IMG/VR virus record: IMGVR_UViG_3300003690_000056
Coordinates: 1-26,488 of that record
Origin: a virus
DNA length: 26,488 nucleotides
Strand: one strand, 5' to 3'
The position numbers and the translations under genes are program-made. Positions 3,079 through 14,734 of the stretch are shown piece after piece. The notes under the pieces are model-generated. The model worked only from the letters and a program-made list of their open reading frames with translations. It was not told where the DNA came from and searched no databases. Every line of letters begins with the position of its first letter. Positions within the stretch are counted from its first letter, which is position 1.

Positions 3079-3353
3079 TGACTAATAAAGATATGTTGAA
3101 ACAACAGCTTTTAGCTCTTCAAGCTAATTGTGTATCTATTGTTCAGATTGTTGAATCAACATTATCGATACTAGATAATACTGAAAAATCGCCTTCGGAC
3201 ATAGAACCGAAGATGTGTTTGCATCCTAAAGATACGTTACAAGATGCACGAACAATGGGGTATCCCACTCGATGGAGATGCCCCCAGTGTAATGAGTATC
3301 TTGAAATTGCAAATGATCAAACTCCACAAAGAGGGAAACAGGAGATTAACTGA
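3078..3353 (+). CDS. Small zinc-binding-like protein in tail operon
   Basis: This is a 91-residue protein. GTG 3078, overlapping the previous stop as TAGTG, is the preferred start; ATG 3093 is an alternative. The first half is a predicted amphipathic helix (LKQQLLALQANCVSIVQIVE). The second half holds C47, H49 and a CPQC pair (C68, C71) separated by a 'D....MGYPTRWR' stretch, resembling a small zinc ribbon with a CxH knuckle and a CxxC knuckle. The family is not recognised. Zinc binding is inferred from ligand spacing. It is a second small cysteine-rich protein in this tail operon, besides the one at 12167. Confidence 0.62.
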   Translation: MTNKDMLKQQLLALQANCVSIVQIVESTLSILDNTEKSPSDIEPKMCLHPKDTLQDARTMGYPTRWRCPQCNEYLEIANDQTPQRGKQEIN

Positions 3354-4111
3354 TGGCTATTCAAGGATTGATGGATGCTAGAATATTGTTAGGAGGGTAT
3401 GAATACACCAGTTTCTCTAATTCATTAACCACAGACTATGGTGTTGAAATGTTAGACAATACTGTGTTTGGTGATACAACGAGATCGAATCGTGCTGGTC
3501 TTCGTACTTTCAGTTTTAATGTAAATGGATATCGGGATGATGGATCATCCACTCCCTTTGGAGATACATCAGGAACTGCGTATTCTCGAATAGGAGCGAC
3601 TCGGGAAGTATTCTCATTCGCTCCTGTCGGTACGGCAGATGGTCAACGGTCGTTTACAATTCGTGGAGTCAACGGAACTTATACTCCTTTGTCTGGATCG
3701 GTTGGAGATCTTTTACCTTTTGAGTTGACTGGAAATGCTGCTCACTCCGAATTGATTAAAGGCGTTGTTGAAGGTGTTGGTGCAAAAACTGCGACAGCCA
3801 ATAGTACAGGATCAAATATTGGTGCATTGTCTGCTACGCAAACTTTGTATGCAGCTCTTCATGTTACAGCGTTCAGCGGAACCTCACCTACATTGGATGT
3901 TTTAGTCGAGAGCGATAGTGGTTCTGGTTTTGGGACAGCTTCTTCTCGAGTTTCATTTGCTCAAAATACGGGAAGCATTCAATCTCAGTGGGTAAGTGTC
4001 AATGGGGCTGTTACCGATACATATTGGCGAACAAAAATGACTATCGGAGGATCAGACCCTTCATTCACAGTCTATGTAACTCTAGGAATTGGAAGTCTAG
4101 CTATTTCTTAA
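3353..4111 (+). CDS. Tail-tube-like protein (first of two paralogues)
   Basis: This is a 252-residue beta-rich protein. An AGGAG site precedes ATG 3353, which overlaps the previous stop. Residues about 30-50 contain VEMLDNTVFGDTTRSN followed by AGL, almost identical to EMLDDTVMGDTTRSN in the next gene, so both belong to one tube-like family. This copy is nearly twice as long. The extra C-terminal half (from about residue 155: ATQTLYAALHVTAF, TLDVLVESDSGSGF, TYWRTKMTIGG) looks like an added beta-sandwich domain that could decorate the tube surface. Which of the two genes makes the bulk tube is not decidable by eye. The second has the stronger ribosome-binding site and a terminator after it. 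Confidence 0.72.
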   Translation: MAIQGLMDARILLGGYEYTSFSNSLTTDYGVEMLDNTVFGDTTRSNRAGLRTFSFNVNGYRDDGSSTPFGDTSGTAYSRIGATREVFSFAPVGTADGQRSFTIRGVNGTYTPLSGSVGDLLPFELTGNAAHSELIKGVVEGVGAKTATANSTGSNIGALSATQTLYAALHVTAFSGTSPTLDVLVESDSGSGFGTASSRVSFAQNTGSIQSQWVSVNGAVTDTYWRTKMTIGGSDPSFTVYVTLGIGSLAIS

Positions 4112-4124
4112 GGAGGTTAGGGTA

Positions 4125-4535
4125 ATGGCAACATTTGTATACACCGATGCATCAGTGGTCGTTAATTCAGTAGATTTAAGCGATCATGTAAAATCTTGCA
4201 CATTGAATTATGAAGCTGAAATGCTTGATGATACAGTGATGGGCGATACGACTCGTTCCAACATGGCGGGTTTGTTGAACTGGTCGATTGATGTTGATTT
4301 TCTTCAAGATTTTGCATCAGCAAAAGTTGACGCAACATTGTTTACTCTCGTCGGGGCTGCAGCATTTACTGTAGTGCTAAAACCTACTAGCGGATCTGTT
4401 TCTTCAACCAATCCATCATTTACTGGTACTGCGGTTCTGGAATCCTATCCGCCTATGACAGGAGGGGTTGGAGACATTGAAACAGTAAGCGTGACATTCC
4501 GATCTGCTGGAACATTGGCGAGAGCTACATCATAA
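4125..4535 (+). CDS. Major tail tube protein candidate (second paralogue)
   Basis: This 136-residue beta-rich protein is preceded by one of the strongest ribosome-binding sites in the window (AAGGAGGT, 8 bases before ATG). Early strands VVVNSVDLSDHVKSCTLNY are typical of major tail proteins, which often open with 'v.vng.dlS.yv....l'. The EMLDDTVMGDTTRSN motif is shared with the upstream gene. The C-terminal GGVGDIETVSVTFRSAG strand matches the closing 'sv.f...G' of tube proteins. A perfect hairpin terminator follows 11 bases after the stop, as expected for a very highly expressed gene whose transcript level must exceed that of the tail-tip genes downstream. Confidence 0.75.
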   Translation: MATFVYTDASVVVNSVDLSDHVKSCTLNYEAEMLDDTVMGDTTRSNMAGLLNWSIDVDFLQDFASAKVDATLFTLVGAAAFTVVLKPTSGSVSSTNPSFTGTAVLESYPPMTGGVGDIETVSVTFRSAGTLARATS

Positions 4536-4546
4536 ACTGAGTGGCG

Positions 4547-4579
4547 ATGAAGGGAGGGATGTCCCTCCCTTCATTTTTT
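4547..4579 (+). terminator. Rho-independent terminator after the tail tube gene
   Basis: A 12-bp perfect stem (4548-4559 with 4562-4573, TGAAGGGAGGGA paired to TCCCTCCCTTCA) with a two-base loop is followed directly by six T residues (4574-4579). It lies between the tail tube gene and the chaperone gene. Partial read-through would lower expression of chaperone, tape measure and tip genes relative to head and tube genes. Confidence 0.9.
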
Positions 4580-4634: not shown

Positions 4635-5078
4635 ATGACAAACCTTCAAGCTCGTGAACTCAACATTTTTGTAGAAAAGGGTATTGAGTCTAAGCCTCGA
4701 TATCTTCGATATGACTTTAATGCTCTTGCAGATTTCGAACAAATCAATGGCATGGGTCTTGGTCAATTGTTGTCAATGAAAGCTGTGTTCGGAACAGTAA
4801 GAGCCATGTTGTGGGCTGGTTGCAAGGCTGATGATGCTGGACTGACTATTCAAGGAGCTGGTGAATTAATTGGTGACTATATTCGAGCCGGTGGGACGAT
4901 TGATGACATATTGGGAAAATGTTTCGATGCTGCTATAGATCAAGGGGCCATTGGTTCACCGAACAAAGAAAAAGAAGGTGAAGACAGTAAATCGGGAAAC
5001 GTATCCCCACCCACTCCGAAGGCGTTAAAAGAGGTCTCCAAACGTGGGGAGAGTGGATCGAAGAAGCCAAATCCATAG
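4635..5078 (+). CDS. Tail assembly chaperone, short (unshifted) form
   Basis: This is a 147-residue protein with an AGGAG site before ATG 4635. It is equivalent to lambda gpG by position between tail tube and tape measure genes. The N-terminal domain (FVEKGIESKPRYLRYDFNAL, then ADFEQINGMGLGQLLS and MLWAGCKADDAGLT) shows the typical chaperone helical pattern 'l.yd..al..lee..g.....l'. From residue about 110 the frame becomes low-complexity and charged (KEKEGEDSKSGN, then PPTPKALKEVSK), as expected for the tail of the unshifted product. A -1 frameshift heptamer lies at codons 120-122, giving a longer fusion with the following frame. Chaperones of this pair coat the tape measure protein during tail assembly. 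Confidence 0.82.
   Translation: MTNLQARELNIFVEKGIESKPRYLRYDFNALADFEQINGMGLGQLLSMKAVFGTVRAMLWAGCKADDAGLTIQGAGELIGDYIRAGGTIDDILGKCFDAAIDQGAIGSPNKEKEGEDSKSGNVSPPTPKALKEVSKRGESGSKKPNP
4994..5000 (+). promoter_or_regulatory. Programmed -1 ribosomal frameshift site GGGAAAC
   Basis: In the chaperone frame the codons read tcG GGA AAC, a canonical X-XXY-YYZ slippery heptamer that differs from the lambda G-T site (GGGAAAG) only in the last base. The -1 frame has stops at 4979 and 4988 and then stays open from 4991 to 5347, so the heptamer lies at the very start of the usable overlap. Three bases downstream, TCCCCAC (5004-5010) can pair with GTGGGGA (5044-5050), a possible stimulatory stem with a 33-base loop. 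Confidence 0.85.
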
Positions 5079-5347
5079 CATTCGGACCATTGGCTTTAAA
5101 ACATAATGAATTGTATGCAATGACCCCACGAGAATTTCATGATCTTTCAATAGGATGGAATTGGAGGCAAGAATTTCAAGAAGAACGCGAGGCTAAATAC
5201 GTCACCATTCTTGCCAATGCGAGTGGAAATTTAAAAACACGTCTTCGTATTGAAGACGTGTTGGGTCGAAATACCATGCGTCAAAAAAAAGACATAAGCG
5301 AGAAGAGAAAAATATTGGCTGAACGACGGAAGCAACAGGATAGTTAA
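5000..5347 (+). CDS. Tail assembly chaperone, -1 frameshift extension (gpT-like)
   Basis: This is the -1 frame portion, translated only as a fusion to residues 1-122 of the upstream chaperone. The fusion product would have 237 residues. The extension reads RIPTHSEGVKRGLQTWGEWI, then EEAKSIAFGPLALKHNELYA, then MTPREFHDLSIGWNWRQEFQ. 'L..MTPREF..L..GWNWR' is the recognisable part of gpT-like chaperone domains (compare 'm...e......g...r' in minor tail T families). The C-terminus is basic and helical (RQKKDISEKRKILAERRKQQ). A start inside this frame (TTG 5090) has no convincing ribosome-binding site. The stop abuts the tape measure ATG with no gap. Confidence 0.83.
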   Translation, partial: RIPTHSEGVKRGLQTWGEWIEEAKSIAFGPLALKHNELYAMTPREFHDLSIGWNWRQEFQEEREAKYVTILANASGNLKTRLRIEDVLGRNTMRQKKDISEKRKILAERRKQQDS

Positions 5348-8300
5348 ATGGCAGTTGAAGATACAGTACGAATAAAATTTGTAGCCAATACAGCTGCCTT
5401 TAACGCTGGTCTGAAAACAGCTTCAAGTTCGTTATCACGATTCGGGACGAATGCTTTTTTCCTGGGATCTCGTATCACAGCAGGCATTGGTGTACCGATT
5501 GCTCTTCTGACAAAAGCAGTCGTAGGGATTGGGGCGGCATTTGATCAAGCAATGACCGAATCGCTGGCCATCATGGGTCGTGATGGACAGCAAATGCGCG
5601 GCCAGATGGAAGACATCGCCAAATCGATTGCTCTTCAAACTAAATTCTCTGCAGAAGAAGCCGCACAAGCGTATTTCTTTCTTGCGTCGTCAGGATTAAA
5701 TGCTGCTGAATCAATGCAAGCATTGCCCGTTGCGGCTAAATTTGCACAAGCCGGTGTTATTGGCTTAGAAAAAGCGACTGAATTACTATCCGATGCATAT
5801 ATTACGTTGGGATTGCGATCTGCAGATCCAATCGAGAATATGCAAAATATGCAGCGGGTAGCCGATGTTTTAACAGAAGCTAATAACCGCGCACAAGGTT
5901 CTATTATTGAATTTGCCCAAGCATTGACCAATAGAGCTGGTGTTGCGTTCCGTACCTTTAATATTGATGTTGAAGAAGGGGTGGCAGCTCTCGCGGCCTT
6001 TGCCGAACGAGGAATTAAGGGACGGACAGCAGGTCGGCAGCTGTTTATTGTTATCCGCGACTTGCAACGTGCCGTTTTGAAAAATAATGACGCATGGGAA
6101 AAACTTATTGGAAAGGATGCTGTTTTCTCTGCGGCAGAGGGTGATTTTAAAAATCTTGCAGATATCATCGGAACATTAGAAAATCGTCTTGAAGGGATGT
6201 CCGATAAAACAAAAAAGACCACCCTTCAATTGTTAGGTTTCCAAGAACGATCTCTCCAAGCAACATTGGCTCTCATTGGAGCCAGCGACCGGATACGTGA
6301 ACTCGAAGGTTATTTACGTTCAGCTGGTGGTGTTACGCAACGGGTTGCTGAAAAACAAATGATGTCGTTTACGAACCAATTAGGTTTGGTATCGGAACGA
6401 TTGAAACAAGTCGGCATTGATTTGTTTGATGCCTTTCGTACAACGATTGAGCGTGATGTTCTTCCATTTGCTCGGGCATTGATCGACAAGTTAAAAGGTC
6501 TTGTTCTCTGGATAAAATTGTTACATCCAGAAACGAAGGCATCGATACTCGCTTTCATGGCTTTGGGCGTAGCTTTAGGTCCAGTTGTTGCTGTAGTTGG
6601 AGCTCTCAGTCTAGTGTTAATTCCTTTAATTGCAGCTTTTAAATTAGGAATAGCTCCGATTATCGCATGGGGGATGGCACTGAAGGGAGTGCAGGGATCT
6701 CTTACTGCTCTTGCACGAACATGGGCGATTGTTAGAGCAGGCATGACTGGGGCGACTTTCGTAGGATTGTCTGCAACAGCAGGTGTGGCCGCTACTGCTT
6801 TAGCTGTATTGACGGCCAAAGCACTCGCTTGGATAGCCATAATTTACGGAATTTATAAAGCATTATCATACGCACAGAAAGCAGTCGTTGACTATACATC
6901 AGCCAATAACACAATGGCCAGTTCGATTGGTGTATCCACACTTAGGTTAACTCAATTAGTCAATGAATACCAAACATTAGCTGCTATTATCCATAAATCT
7001 GACGATCAAAAAAATCGATTTGCCCATACAACGGAAATGTTGTCTGCTGCTATAGGTCGATCTGCTGATAGCTTTAGAAACGAAGAAGAAGCAGGCAGGA
7101 GTTTGCTTGGCCTCGTGAGAGATCTGACTATCGCAGAATTCGCCGCAGGAAAGGCAGCGATTGATCAACATATTGAACGGAAGGCAGCGTTAGAAGAAGA
7201 AGCTAGACTTATTGGTGAACAAATAGAAAATATGTCTGCCTTGTTAGCTTTGGGTGAAGGTGCACAGGTAACACGGCAAGAGGCAGGCGTACAAAAGTCC
7301 ACCAGCTTCCTTCCCGGCGGCATCCCTGGGGTGGTGACGGTCGATGATTCACTTCGAGAAAAATGGTTGGATCAGTTAGCAGAACTATCAGTTCAGTTAG
7401 AGAATGTAAAAATAAAGACTAAAGAAACGGAAGAAGCAGAATATTCATTACGTGTAGCGCTGGGTTTGTTAACTCAATCCCAACGAGACGAAATCCAAGC
7501 CACGTCAGATGCTATCAAAGCAAAACAGGAATTGGACGCGCAACTTCGTATCAGTGAATTGCAGGCGGAAGCATACTATAAAAGAGTCGATGCTATAGCA
7601 GCATCATTAAAAGGCCTTGCCACTGAAGGTGTAGCAGAATTAGGAGCAGGTTGGGCAAAGTTAACTGTTGAAGAACAAGCTAATACTGAAAGTATTAAAC
7701 GTTTGTGGGAACAGTACTCAAAACTCCGACCACTGCTTGCTCCCGGCGAAATGCCCGCAGATTTAGAAGCACTGACCAGTGGACTTAGATTACAAGCTGA
7801 AGCGACGAAATTTGCCGCATCTGCTACTGGTAAACTTATTGATTCCATGAAAGGCATCGATTCTGTTTTTGAGCACTATGTTGATAATCAACAACATATT
7901 ATCGATGCCTTTAATGAAATGCAAGGAGAAATGGACCCCAGGTTCTTTGAAGCACATGGGGCTACGATTCTTAAATTAGCAAAATTCTATGGCGATAGAT
8001 TAGTACCTGAAATGGATGGTGTTATCGACGCAGCCAAGGAATGGAAGAAAACATCTACAAACACCACCGATTCAGTTGTGAAGGATCAAGAAAAAGCTTT
8101 TGACTCTATTGTTGAAGCTTCCAACCGGATGACAGCCAGCATGATGGATAAACAGGCTGAGCTGAATGCGTTTACATTAAGCGCACAAGACGCCGAGATT
8201 GTGGGGCTGAAAAAAGGCTACAACATAATGAAATTCAATCATGCCAAGGCTTATGCTGACATGGTTGAGGATGTTGCATTATTACCAGAAGCAGAACGTT

Positions 8301-10537
8301 TTGCAGGCATCATGCGGCTCAATCAATTAGAAGCCGATAGTACAAAAATGCTAGCATTAGAGGAACGAATCGGTCTACTTCGCATACTGAAAGCCTTGGG
8401 TGTTGACGACAAAATTCTTCGCAATCATGAAGATTATTCCAAAGAATGGTTAGAAATAGAAATAGACCGAATGCGCGATGCCGTTGATGAGTGGGAAGAG
8501 TACCACAAACGGGTTGCAGCTCTAACAGCTCTCGCTGGCTTGTTTAATGAATTATCGCGTATCGTTCCAGGTTTAAAAGAAGTCGGAGAAGCATTAGACT
8601 CTGTGGCATCTGCTACGACAGCTTGGGGAAACAGTATTGAGCAAATGTCTGGACCTAAAGCTACAGCAATAGATAAAATAACAGGGGCCATCGGCATGGC
8701 GACGGCTGCTATGTCGGCGTTCATCTCCATCAGTCAAGTAGGCTCCCGTGCAGCACGAGGGGCTTTGGGAGCAATGACCGGCGCACAAATGGGGTCGGGA
8801 ATAGGCGCAATGTTCGGCCCAGCAGGTGCAGCTATCGGAGCAGCCGTTGGTGCGTTGGTTGGCGGTATTGCTGGATTGCTGATGAAAGATCCAGGATGGA
8901 AGAAGATAGAATCAACAATTAAAGATAAATGGGGAATCAGTGTTTCGGAAACATTATCGAAAGAAATTGCAGCAACAGCTAAAGAGATAGGCAGCGATCT
9001 TGGTGCATCATTACTGCACATCAATCAAGTAATTGAAGAATCCGGTGGTGTCACCGCTGGGAATGTGGGTAAATGGACGCGACATGTCCGTGACGCATTC
9101 TCCATGATTCATCAAGGTATTTTTACTACTTCCCAGGCAGCAGAAGTCTTAGATGAAAATTTTGCCTCATTGGTGAAGGTTGGTACTCAAGTAGGCGGCG
9201 TATTACGAGCAGATGTTTTTGAATTGATGCGGTTAGATGAACAATTCCGAACTAATTCTCAAGCCGTAAAAGAATTTAAAGAATCAATGGTAACCTTAGT
9301 TCATGAAGGTTTGATGCTGTTTGCAGAGGGAGTAACATTCACTCGAAAGAAATGGGAAGAAGCTTTTGATGCGAAAATAGCGAAAGTAACCGAGTTAGGA
9401 AAAAAGACTGAAGAAGAAATAATACAAATGCGTACGAATTTTGATGAAAAATTGTTCCAAAAATTAAAAGGCGATTTCCGTGAATTAAGCCAGATGGTGG
9501 AGATGTCCTTTGCGGTTATGGTGAAAGAAGGAAAATCTCTGGTTGAAATTATTCTTGCGCTGGGGCCGGCTCTTGACGAATTAGAAATTCTTGTTAAATC
9601 TCTTGGATTTACCGGATCTGAAACAATAGAATTTTTGCTAAAATTAAGAGAATTCACCAAGGTGAATGAAGGATTGATGAAGAAAATAGCTGGAACCACT
9701 ATGATGTTGGTGGGTATGGCTAACTCTGGTTATATGACGGAAAAGGCGTTCAATCAAATGGGACGGTCTGCCAACCGTCAATTCAATCAGTTGATTAAAA
9801 ATGGTTTGTCGGCAGACGAAGCATTACTGATAATGATGCCTACTCTAATGGCTTTATCAGAGGCAGCTGAATTGTATGGGTTTGCAATCAGTAAGGGTAC
9901 TCAAAAAATTATTGATCAAGCTAAAGCAAAAGGATTGTGGGGTAAAAAGGCTATAACTGTTGATGATAAACAACTCGCTGCTCAACTGGCCATAGCCGAT
10001 GCATTGGGAGTATTGATTGAACTCTTTGGTGGCGAGCTTCCCAAATCGTTGGTGAAATTGCAGAAATCCTCCAAGAAGGAATCAGATAAAATAAGAAAGA
10101 ATTTTAAAGAGAATACACTTCGAATTCAAGATGATTTCAATAACCTGTATATCGATATTGAAATTTCTGATATTGATATACCAGACATCCCGAAACTTGA
10201 AATAGATTTTGACCTTGATATAGAATCTTTTCATAGACAATTCAATGAAATTGATTGGAGTAATTTGAATATTGGTACGAATATCAGTGTTTCGGGAATA
10301 GAAGGAAACCAACATGGAGGGCTTATCACTAAACCAACGCTTTCCATGATAGGTGAAGGAGGGGAGACCGAGTTGATTGGGCCAATTGGATTTATGTCCA
10401 AAGCATTGGAAGGAGCTCTGTCACAAACTGGTCCCTCAGAAGCTGAACGGGAAATGTTAGCAGAATTACATGGATTGAGAAGTGACCTTAAAACATTACC
10501 AATTCATCTTCGCGATGCACTTATTTTAGCGGGATAA
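5348..10537 (+). CDS. Tail tape measure protein
   Basis: This is a 1729-residue protein that sets tail length and occupies the tube lumen. The N-terminal region (about residues 65-270: FDQAMTESLAIMGRDG, TKFSAEEAAQAYFFLASSGL, GIKGRTAGRQLF) is the TP901/PhageMin_Tail type tape measure core. Hydrophobic stretches lie at about 395-445 and 479-506, with a Gly/Ala-rich helix at about 1136-1178 (GAMFGPAGAAIGAAVGALVG); these are membrane-interacting segments typical of tape measures. Long helical, charged regions fill the rest. Near the C-terminus is an unusual Asp/Ile alternation (IEISDIDIPDIPKLEIDFD), then GGLITKPTLSMIGEGGETEL, the conserved 'GG...kPt...GE.G.E' tape measure ending. At about 1.5 angstrom per residue, a rule from other phages, the tail would be near 260 nm. 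No lytic enzyme domain was recognised. Confidence 0.95.
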   Translation: MAVEDTVRIKFVANTAAFNAGLKTASSSLSRFGTNAFFLGSRITAGIGVPIALLTKAVVGIGAAFDQAMTESLAIMGRDGQQMRGQMEDIAKSIALQTKFSAEEAAQAYFFLASSGLNAAESMQALPVAAKFAQAGVIGLEKATELLSDAYITLGLRSADPIENMQNMQRVADVLTEANNRAQGSIIEFAQALTNRAGVAFRTFNIDVEEGVAALAAFAERGIKGRTAGRQLFIVIRDLQRAVLKNNDAWEKLIGKDAVFSAAEGDFKNLADIIGTLENRLEGMSDKTKKTTLQLLGFQERSLQATLALIGASDRIRELEGYLRSAGGVTQRVAEKQMMSFTNQLGLVSERLKQVGIDLFDAFRTTIERDVLPFARALIDKLKGLVLWIKLLHPETKASILAFMALGVALGPVVAVVGALSLVLIPLIAAFKLGIAPIIAWGMALKGVQGSLTALARTWAIVRAGMTGATFVGLSATAGVAATALAVLTAKALAWIAIIYGIYKALSYAQKAVVDYTSANNTMASSIGVSTLRLTQLVNEYQTLAAIIHKSDDQKNRFAHTTEMLSAAIGRSADSFRNEEEAGRSLLGLVRDLTIAEFAAGKAAIDQHIERKAALEEEARLIGEQIENMSALLALGEGAQVTRQEAGVQKSTSFLPGGIPGVVTVDDSLREKWLDQLAELSVQLENVKIKTKETEEAEYSLRVALGLLTQSQRDEIQATSDAIKAKQELDAQLRISELQAEAYYKRVDAIAASLKGLATEGVAELGAGWAKLTVEEQANTESIKRLWEQYSKLRPLLAPGEMPADLEALTSGLRLQAEATKFAASATGKLIDSMKGIDSVFEHYVDNQQHIIDAFNEMQGEMDPRFFEAHGATILKLAKFYGDRLVPEMDGVIDAAKEWKKTSTNTTDSVVKDQEKAFDSIVEASNRMTASMMDKQAELNAFTLSAQDAEIVGLKKGYNIMKFNHAKAYADMVEDVALLPEAERFAGIMRLNQLEADSTKMLALEERIGLLRILKALGVDDKILRNHEDYSKEWLEIEIDRMRDAVDEWEEYHKRVAALTALAGLFNELSRIVPGLKEVGEALDSVASATTAWGNSIEQMSGPKATAIDKITGAIGMATAAMSAFISISQVGSRAARGALGAMTGAQMGSGIGAMFGPAGAAIGAAVGALVGGIAGLLMKDPGWKKIESTIKDKWGISVSETLSKEIAATAKEIGSDLGASLLHINQVIEESGGVTAGNVGKWTRHVRDAFSMIHQGIFTTSQAAEVLDENFASLVKVGTQVGGVLRADVFELMRLDEQFRTNSQAVKEFKESMVTLVHEGLMLFAEGVTFTRKKWEEAFDAKIAKVTELGKKTEEEIIQMRTNFDEKLFQKLKGDFRELSQMVEMSFAVMVKEGKSLVEIILALGPALDELEILVKSLGFTGSETIEFLLKLREFTKVNEGLMKKIAGTTMMLVGMANSGYMTEKAFNQMGRSANRQFNQLIKNGLSADEALLIMMPTLMALSEAAELYGFAISKGTQKIIDQAKAKGLWGKKAITVDDKQLAAQLAIADALGVLIELFGGELPKSLVKLQKSSKKESDKIRKNFKENTLRIQDDFNNLYIDIEISDIDIPDIPKLEIDFDLDIESFHRQFNEIDWSNLNIGTNISVSGIEGNQHGGLITKPTLSMIGEGGETELIGPIGFMSKALEGALSQTGPSEAEREMLAELHGLRSDLKTLPIHLRDALILAG

Positions 10538-12167: not shown

Positions 12168-12568
12168 TGACAATTATCGAAGGACCAATACAAGGCCATG
12201 CACACAGCGGTGTGAAGGATGTCGAGTCTTATCGAACAGCACATACGTCTGCAATGAAAAATGTTGAAAAAGATGTGTATGAAATTGATACGCCTCGAGA
12301 AGCTTATATTAACCATGGTCGATGGGTTGTGAATTGTGAATGTAATGGAGCAGGATTGACCAGTAGAGAATTTGGTGTGACCTGTTGCTTTGATTGTGGT
12401 CGAGTTTACACAAAAATTATTTTTCCAGAAAATGCACAAATGATTGAATCAGTGTTACTGGGCAGGAGAGACCAAACTGAAAGAAATTGGAATATTGGAG
12501 AACCCATAGAATTGTTGAAAAAAGATAACGCAGATCATGGAGTAAATAATGGCTTGGACAACGCCTAG
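12167..12568 (+). CDS. Small zinc-ribbon-like conserved phage protein
   Basis: This is a 133-residue protein between the tail-tip and fibre genes. The middle (residues 50-80) reads HGRWVVNCECNGAG, then GVTCCFDCGRVYTK. CxC (C57, C59) and CCxxC (C73, C74, C77) are spaced like a compact zinc ribbon. The C-terminal half ends in a 'ESVLLGRRDQTERNWNIGEP' stretch followed by IELLKKDNADHG. Proteins with this 'HGRW..dC.C' plus 'r...RNW.pGE....L..dN..HG' pattern occur in tail regions of several phages, from memory, without known function. It overlaps the fibre gene by 20 bases. It could be an assembly factor or a virion component. Confidence 0.68.
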   Translation: MTIIEGPIQGHAHSGVKDVESYRTAHTSAMKNVEKDVYEIDTPREAYINHGRWVVNCECNGAGLTSREFGVTCCFDCGRVYTKIIFPENAQMIESVLLGRRDQTERNWNIGEPIELLKKDNADHGVNNGLDNA

Positions 12569-13901
12569 AACTTGGGTTACTGGAGAGCTTGTTACGGCAG
12601 TTATTTTGAATACTTATGTTCGAGATAATCAGATTGCTCTTGATACATTTGTCGGAGGGCAAGATCTTACTGCGAATCGTATTCTGATCGGTGCTGGTAC
12701 CAGCTCTATTGTGGCGACAGGCGACGGAACGTTAAATGGCGATTTGACTGTTGTCGGTACAGGCCCCCACGTCATCGGCGGCAGCACCGTGGATTATGTG
12801 CGCCTCGGGTTGTCCGGTGCGTTCACGTCTGGCGGCGCGTCCGACGTAGCCTTCGGCACCTACACCTCTGGCGCGTTGACGGGGCATAGCGGGGACTCTG
12901 CTGCCATTGCTGGAACCAAGCTCGACAACTCCGTCGTCACGGCGGGAAGTTGCACGACGATTGCTCAACTGTGGATCAGCGAACCGCAGATCACCGTCGG
13001 TAGTGGCAGCGTCACTAATTCTGCCGCGATCTACGTGGAGGGCGCAGCGTCTGAGGCGACGAACGACCTAGGGATCTGGGTCGATTCTGGGGATGTCCTG
13101 ATTGACGACGATCTGAAGGTAGGCTCACAAGTCATGATCGGCGGCGCAACATCTGGCGGCACGATCCCACTTGGCATTGCCACTAACCAGACCACGAATG
13201 TTCCTTGCATCGATATCGCGAACGCGACCTCTGGGACATATTCACAGGGTATCCATGTGATGCTTGCAAGCATCGGAACAGGTCACGCTGTTGGGTTGGC
13301 CGTTGGTAAAGCGCACTCGGCAAAAAATGATGCTACGTTCGGCTATAAGCACGCCGGTGATGGGAGCGATGCAAATTATGCGTTCGTCGGTGGGCATAGT
13401 AACGACGACGCGCTGAAGGTCTTCATGAATGGCCTTGTGGACGTGCCGGGGACGTTCACCGCAGGCACGAAGACATTCAGAATCCCGCACCCGCTTCCCT
13501 CGCTTGCTGAGTCACACCTTCTCACGCATGCCAGTATCGAAGGCCCACAAGCCGATCTCATCTATCGCGGGTCGGTCACGCTGGTCGATGGCGGTGCAGA
13601 AGTCAATTTAGATTCTGCGAGTGAGATGACCGAAGGCACCTGGGTTATTTTGTGTCGTGATGAGCAGTGCTTCACGTCTAACGAAACCGGCTGGTCGAGT
13701 GTCCGTGGAAGTGTGGCTGGGAACATCCTGACGATTGAGTGCGAGGACGCGACCTCGACCGATACCATTTCGTGGATGGTCGTGGCTGAGCGTCACGATC
13801 CGAATATCTACGACTCATCGTTGACCGACGAGGACGGCCACATCATTGTTGAATCCGAGGTGCCGCAGGAGTCTGATGAAGATGATGAAGACGAAGAATA
13901 G
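12549..13901 (+). CDS. Large tail fibre / receptor-binding protein
   Basis: This 450-residue protein opens with MAWTTPRTWVTGELVTAVIL, a docking motif shared with the shorter fibre gene at 14300. The first about 60 residues use AT-leaning codons like the rest of the operon. From about base 12720 the DNA becomes clearly GC-rich. The middle is Gly/Ser/Thr-rich beta repeats (GDSAAIAGTKLDNS, GGATSGGTIPLGIATNQTTN). The last about 130 residues (FRIPHPLPSLAESHLLTHAS, IEGPQADLIYRGSVTLVDGG, GTWVILCRDEQCFTSNETGW, DTISWMVVAERHDP) match, from memory, a C-terminal domain common in fibres of aquatic phages. The extreme C-terminus is a run of Asp/Glu. It is the likely host-recognition protein. The overlap with the gene before suggests coupled translation. 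Confidence 0.83.
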   Translation: MAWTTPRTWVTGELVTAVILNTYVRDNQIALDTFVGGQDLTANRILIGAGTSSIVATGDGTLNGDLTVVGTGPHVIGGSTVDYVRLGLSGAFTSGGASDVAFGTYTSGALTGHSGDSAAIAGTKLDNSVVTAGSCTTIAQLWISEPQITVGSGSVTNSAAIYVEGAASEATNDLGIWVDSGDVLIDDDLKVGSQVMIGGATSGGTIPLGIATNQTTNVPCIDIANATSGTYSQGIHVMLASIGTGHAVGLAVGKAHSAKNDATFGYKHAGDGSDANYAFVGGHSNDDALKVFMNGLVDVPGTFTAGTKTFRIPHPLPSLAESHLLTHASIEGPQADLIYRGSVTLVDGGAEVNLDSASEMTEGTWVILCRDEQCFTSNETGWSSVRGSVAGNILTIECEDATSTDTISWMVVAERHDPNIYDSSLTDEDGHIIVESEVPQESDEDDEDEE

Positions 13902-14299: not shown

Positions 14300-14734
14300 A
14301 TGGCGTGGACAACTCCAAGAACATGGGTAAGTGGCGAGCTGGTTACGGCTGCTCTGTTCAACACTCATTTAAAGGATAACCTGAATATTCTTAAAACTGC
14401 TATTAATGATTCAGGACACTTGGAATTTGTAGACGCTACAGAATTGACGATTGCATCTGGCGTGATTACAGTGACGCAGAATTATCACACAGTCGATACC
14501 GAGGGCGATGCCAGTTCTGATGACCTTGATACGATTACGGTGGGAACGAACGTCGGCACCGGTTTTGTGTTGTGCTTGGTTCCTGCTAATGACGGTCGAA
14601 CCGTAGTGCTGAAAGAAGGTACTGGCGGTGCGGATAACTTGGATATTGGCGCTAATCTCACGATGGACGCCGATTATAAAACCATAGCTTTGATTTACGA
14701 TGGATCAAACTGGAAGCAATTCACGTCCCTCTAA
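14300..14734 (+). CDS. Short tail fibre protein sharing the fibre N-terminal motif
   Basis: This is a 144-residue protein, with GAGGGGAC before ATG. The first 27 residues are 20/27 identical by eye to the start of the large fibre (MAWTTPRTWVSGELVTAALF, then NTHLKDN), while the remainder is unrelated. The body is beta-rich (TELTIASGVITVTQNYHTVD, then TITVGTNVGTGFVLCLVP, ending in DYKTIALIYDGSNWKQF). The 'I.LiYDG..W....' ending is common in small phage fibre or spike proteins. It is likely a second adhesin or an accessory fibre docking to the same tip site. It returns to the base composition of the rest of the genome. Confidence 0.72.
   Translation: MAWTTPRTWVSGELVTAALFNTHLKDNLNILKTAINDSGHLEFVDATELTIASGVITVTQNYHTVDTEGDASSDDLDTITVGTNVGTGFVLCLVPANDGRTVVLKEGTGGADNLDIGANLTMDADYKTIALIYDGSNWKQFTSL

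Follow-up and report, generated by a model that had tools for sequence, protein, structure and literature searches.

Translational frameshifting of the lambda G/G-T type is widely conserved among tailed phages (PMC5009743). In phage lambda, G and T immediately precede the tape measure gene and are fused (gpG/gpGT) by a -1 shift at the heptamer GGGAAAG toward the 3' end of G; the frameshift product is needed at about 1 in 30 (PMC5009743). The heptamer GGGAAAC, in which the A-site codon is AAC (Asn) rather than the AAG (Lys) of lambda, has been published for the tail chaperones of Burkholderia phage KL1 (gp18/gp19; a predicted -1 shift; PMC3483164) and Caulobacter phage Colossus (PMC3556154), and G_GGA_AAC at the tail chaperone of the haloarchaeal virus HCTV-1 is cited in PMC5009743. 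GGGAAAC is also among the commoner heptamers of IS1/IS3 elements, with low efficiency in E. coli (PMC4066793).

We analyzed a 26,488-base virus record (referred to here as the window), which belongs to a tailed phage that probably infects bacteria. The gene order at the locus is major tail protein (4125-4535; PHROG 4574, E = 1.7e-29), G, T, and tail tape measure protein (5348-10537, plus strand; PHROG 1533, E = 2.7e-44; Pfam PF10145). The G part, a predicted tail assembly chaperone (4635-5078, plus strand; 147 amino acids [aa] when unshifted), is an open reading frame with a Shine-Dalgarno (SD) sequence (AGGAG) 8 nt 5' of its ATG and matches PHROG 2115 ("tail protein"; E = 1.3e-11). The T domain (5000-5347, plus strand; 115 aa plus the stop), which would be read by ribosomes that have shifted to the -1 frame, is conserved as a protein among relatives; it matches PHROG 7377 (E = 2.9e-9), the function of which is unknown in PHROG, and, weakly, PHROG 1404 ("tail protein"; E = 0.01). 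Both halves match known tail chaperone or tail families, and the two overlapping frames, the second in -1, are flanked by the major tail protein and tape measure genes, as in the G/G-T class.

The original prediction placed a lambda-like -1 frameshift at GGGAAAC, and the geometry that it described is present in the window. The slippery heptamer G_GGA_AAC (4994-5000, plus strand) is in register (i.e., TCG, 4992-4994; GGA, 4995-4997; AAC, 4998-5000) and is the sole in-register XXXYYYZ heptamer of the 28-codon G/T overlap. It stands, as predicted, at the opening of the -1 frame, 3 nt after the last upstream stop (TAA, 4988-4990), and this frame is open from 4991 to the TAA at 5345-5347, thus reaching the base before the tape measure ATG at 5348. 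The coincidence of the -1-frame opening with the heptamer is not essential, because the frame opens 12 nt 5' of the heptamer in two close relatives (L002 and L003). On this reading, most ribosomes would terminate at the G stop codon (TAG, 5076-5078) and yield the 147-aa chaperone, while a minority would slip back one base on the heptamer, with the Gly and Asn tRNAs re-pairing with GGG AAA, and would go on in the -1 frame. A shift after AAC would join SKSGN to RIPTHSEG and yield a G-T fusion of 237 aa. By analogy with lambda, G would coat the tape measure protein and T would recruit the major tail protein.

The locus resembles that of lambda in its position just before the tape measure gene, in the fusion of G to T, in the -1 shift near the G end, and in its slip class (G_GGA_AAN). 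It differs from lambda in its AAC A-site codon and in an SD-like element upstream. In KL1, which shares the identical heptamer at a tail chaperone, another gene intervenes ahead of the tape measure gene, and the slip site is immediately 5' of the G stop. Colossus and HCTV-1 are likened to the window by the heptamer of their tail chaperone shift, which is again identical; HCTV-1 has an archaeal host, whereas the window virus probably infects bacteria. The AAC codon had been regarded as less usual for bacterial slippage. It is of low efficiency in E. coli, but it is common in IS elements and already documented for KL1, Colossus, and HCTV-1; an Asn AAC at the A site is not new for tail chaperones. 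A low efficiency would suit a product needed at a low ratio, as is the case in lambda.

The motif taken alone is weak evidence, because the forward genes of the window contain 22 in-register XXXYYYZ heptamers per 4,345 codons (0.005 per codon), so that approximately 0.14 would be expected by chance in the overlap. When codons were resampled synonymously with the 0-frame protein fixed, 8% of the cases had no -1-frame stop in the overlap. Two other in-register heptamers, AAAGGGT at 4676 and GGGAAAA at 4913, were rejected as slip sites; -1-frame stops follow both of them, and the second is not conserved.

An alignment of related phages had been proposed as a check on the heptamer, and it bore the prediction out. 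The comparison set comprised the window and ten viral contigs (L002 to L010 and L016) that had both parts and spanned the site, with a G gene nucleotide identity to the window of 65 to 88%. GGGAAAC was in register in 11/11 of these contigs, window included, which are related by descent and amount to about 10 distinct rows, given that L005 and L006 have an identical printed overlap and an identical G protein. Among codon pairs encoding the same residue, synonymous differences at TCG, GGA, and AAC numbered 0 in 126 pairs, compared with a rate of 0.50 in G upstream. The heptamer is intact even in L016, where a Gln codon (CAG) takes the place of the preceding Ser codon.

These data bear on a rival reading in which the heptamer matches by chance and the region owes its conservation to something else (i.e., a protein, DNA, or RNA signal), a reading to which the expected number of heptamers given above and the invariant Gly-Asn encoded by the heptamer codons would lend some support. 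The invariant Arg codon of T starts with the C of AAC, so that T coding may contribute to keeping this base constant. The GGA codon is different in this respect. It is 4-fold degenerate and showed no synonymous change, being the only single-codon column (4995) among 14 amino-acid-invariant Gly columns, and the part of T that is translated does not reach back to its third base; therefore, T coding does not explain the constancy of this codon. The GGGAAAA at 4913, 81 nt upstream of the site, served as a built-in control and was kept in only 2/11 contigs. A chance match is thus extremely improbable, and it is conservation that makes the predicted frameshift signal secure.

A separate T gene, translated by reinitiation after the G stop from an internal TTG (5090) or ATG (5120), would require no frameshift. 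The TTG is in the T frame, 12 nt past the G stop, and the ATG is present in most relatives, but the relatives do not consistently keep the TTG, and the ATG at 5120 is missing from L009. Internal starts were rejected, as no SD sequence was found before 5090, 5111, or 5120. Moreover, such a start would leave the conservation of the heptamer unexplained and would lie downstream of the region from the heptamer to the G stop, where the -1 frame is already conserved and dual coding. In this region, differences by 0-frame codon position were distributed as 50:111:110, versus 432:207:1086 in G alone. The excess in the overlap falls on the second codon position of the 0 frame, equivalent to the third of the -1 frame, and the -1 frame is therefore under protein-level constraint already within the overlap, i.e., where it would be read by frameshifted ribosomes only. 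This substitution pattern favors frameshifting over internal initiation, which we consider unlikely, with only a very slim probability that T is a separate gene.

Taken together, the 11/11 heptamers, the zero synonymous change, the dual coding, the gene order, and the PHROG matches support the lambda G/G-T type reading, and on the basis of this comparative evidence we regard it as highly probable that this tailed phage uses programmed -1 ribosomal frameshifting within its tail assembly chaperone operon. The signal is real and well conserved; it is most likely functional, and it is an ordinary one of its kind.

Regarding possible stimulators, the predicted 7-bp stem (5004-5010 pairing with 5044-5050, plus strand), separated from the heptamer by a 3-nt spacer, can form in the window, but it is not conserved in the relatives, the downstream regions of which fold differently. 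Compared with shuffled sequences, the stem region of the window showed no advantage in folding (z = -1.08), and the stem pairs were no better preserved among the contigs (72.9% of cells paired, against 74.8% after shuffling), with no compensatory double change. The RNAalifold consensus was weak (-5.5 kcal/mol) and included a GGGA/UCCC hairpin overlapping the slip site itself. Fold, consensus, and pair-conservation tests on the window and its relatives detected no conserved or significant downstream stem. The 7-bp stem was consequently rejected as a stimulator, a role that is unlikely for it. The SD-like AGGTGA (4976-4981, plus strand), which ends 12 nt before the heptamer, is probably the better candidate. 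It is exact in 7/11 contigs, always at 12 nt, and two more contigs have GGTGA; it is absent in L007 and L010. Stimulatory SD sequences have been searched for 6 to 17 nt upstream of the motif (PMC4066793), a range that includes this spacing.

Divergent loci keep a T-like frame that is offset by -1 from G, and the heptamer near the G end is GGGAAAC in L028 and L029 and GGGAAAG in L026, L030, and L031. Loci L023 to L025, L027, L032, and L033 have the same gene layout with no XXXYYYZ heptamer in the overlap. In a 15-sequence set, profile homology to the window T was clear for Geobacillus phage GBK2 and Bacillus phage Silence only (E of about 1e-11 to 1e-12). These are the nearest annotated homologues, with a T of PHROG 7377 in -1 in both and, in GBK2, a G of PHROG 2115 as in the window. 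They differ from the window in their slip sites (i.e., CCCAAAC, unannotated, in GBK2; CCCAAAG in Silence, in which the join is annotated and the product is named tape measure chaperone). In GBK2 (L034, 1817-2169; NC_023612.1, about 8816-9168), the annotation gives separate genes for the tail protein and for the hypothetical protein after it, and there is an in-register CCCAAAC at the G end with an open -1 frame, which suggests that GBK2 carries an unannotated frameshift fusion, again with AAC. A profile search of viral contigs with the T alignment found no further loci, and a search of genome contigs yielded two remote loci only and no host match. A phage tblastn search with the capsid and polymerase gave remote matches only, the best capsid match being about 49% to Arthrobacter phages.

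Several neighboring features of the window were also recorded. Each of the adjacent genes at 3353-4111 (PHROG 9522) and 4125-4535 (PHROG 4574) has a match among the major tail protein families, suggesting a duplicated tail tube protein. A strong terminator-like hairpin (4546-4575, plus strand; 13 pairs followed by a T run) lies between the major tail protein and chaperone genes and could lower chaperone transcription relative to that of the tail protein. Farther downstream, two separate genes begin, at 12549-12630 and 14300-14380, with a near-identical N terminus (MAWTTPRTWVTGELVTAVILNTYVRDN and MAWTTPRTWVSGELVTAALFNTHLKDN), which is probably a common N-terminal attachment domain. No tRNA was found within the window.

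No base separates the T stop from the tape measure ATG (TAAATG; region 5325-5350), and only a short AGGA precedes this start codon. Some of the initiation on the tape measure gene may be coupled to ribosomes that have shifted frame. Because the two codons abut, frameshifting might also set tape measure synthesis by translational coupling. A further proposal, which we consider rather unlikely, is that the AAC slip site conserved in 11/11 contigs works without downstream structure, through the upstream SD-like element and the host Asn tRNA, and that such coupling operates.

For specialists, the locus would add little new on mechanism; a conserved AAC-type tail-chaperone slip site joins the few that have been published. 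For this uncultivated phage group, the frameshift reading would allow correct annotation, i.e., of a 237-aa G-T fusion and not of a stray TTG open reading frame.
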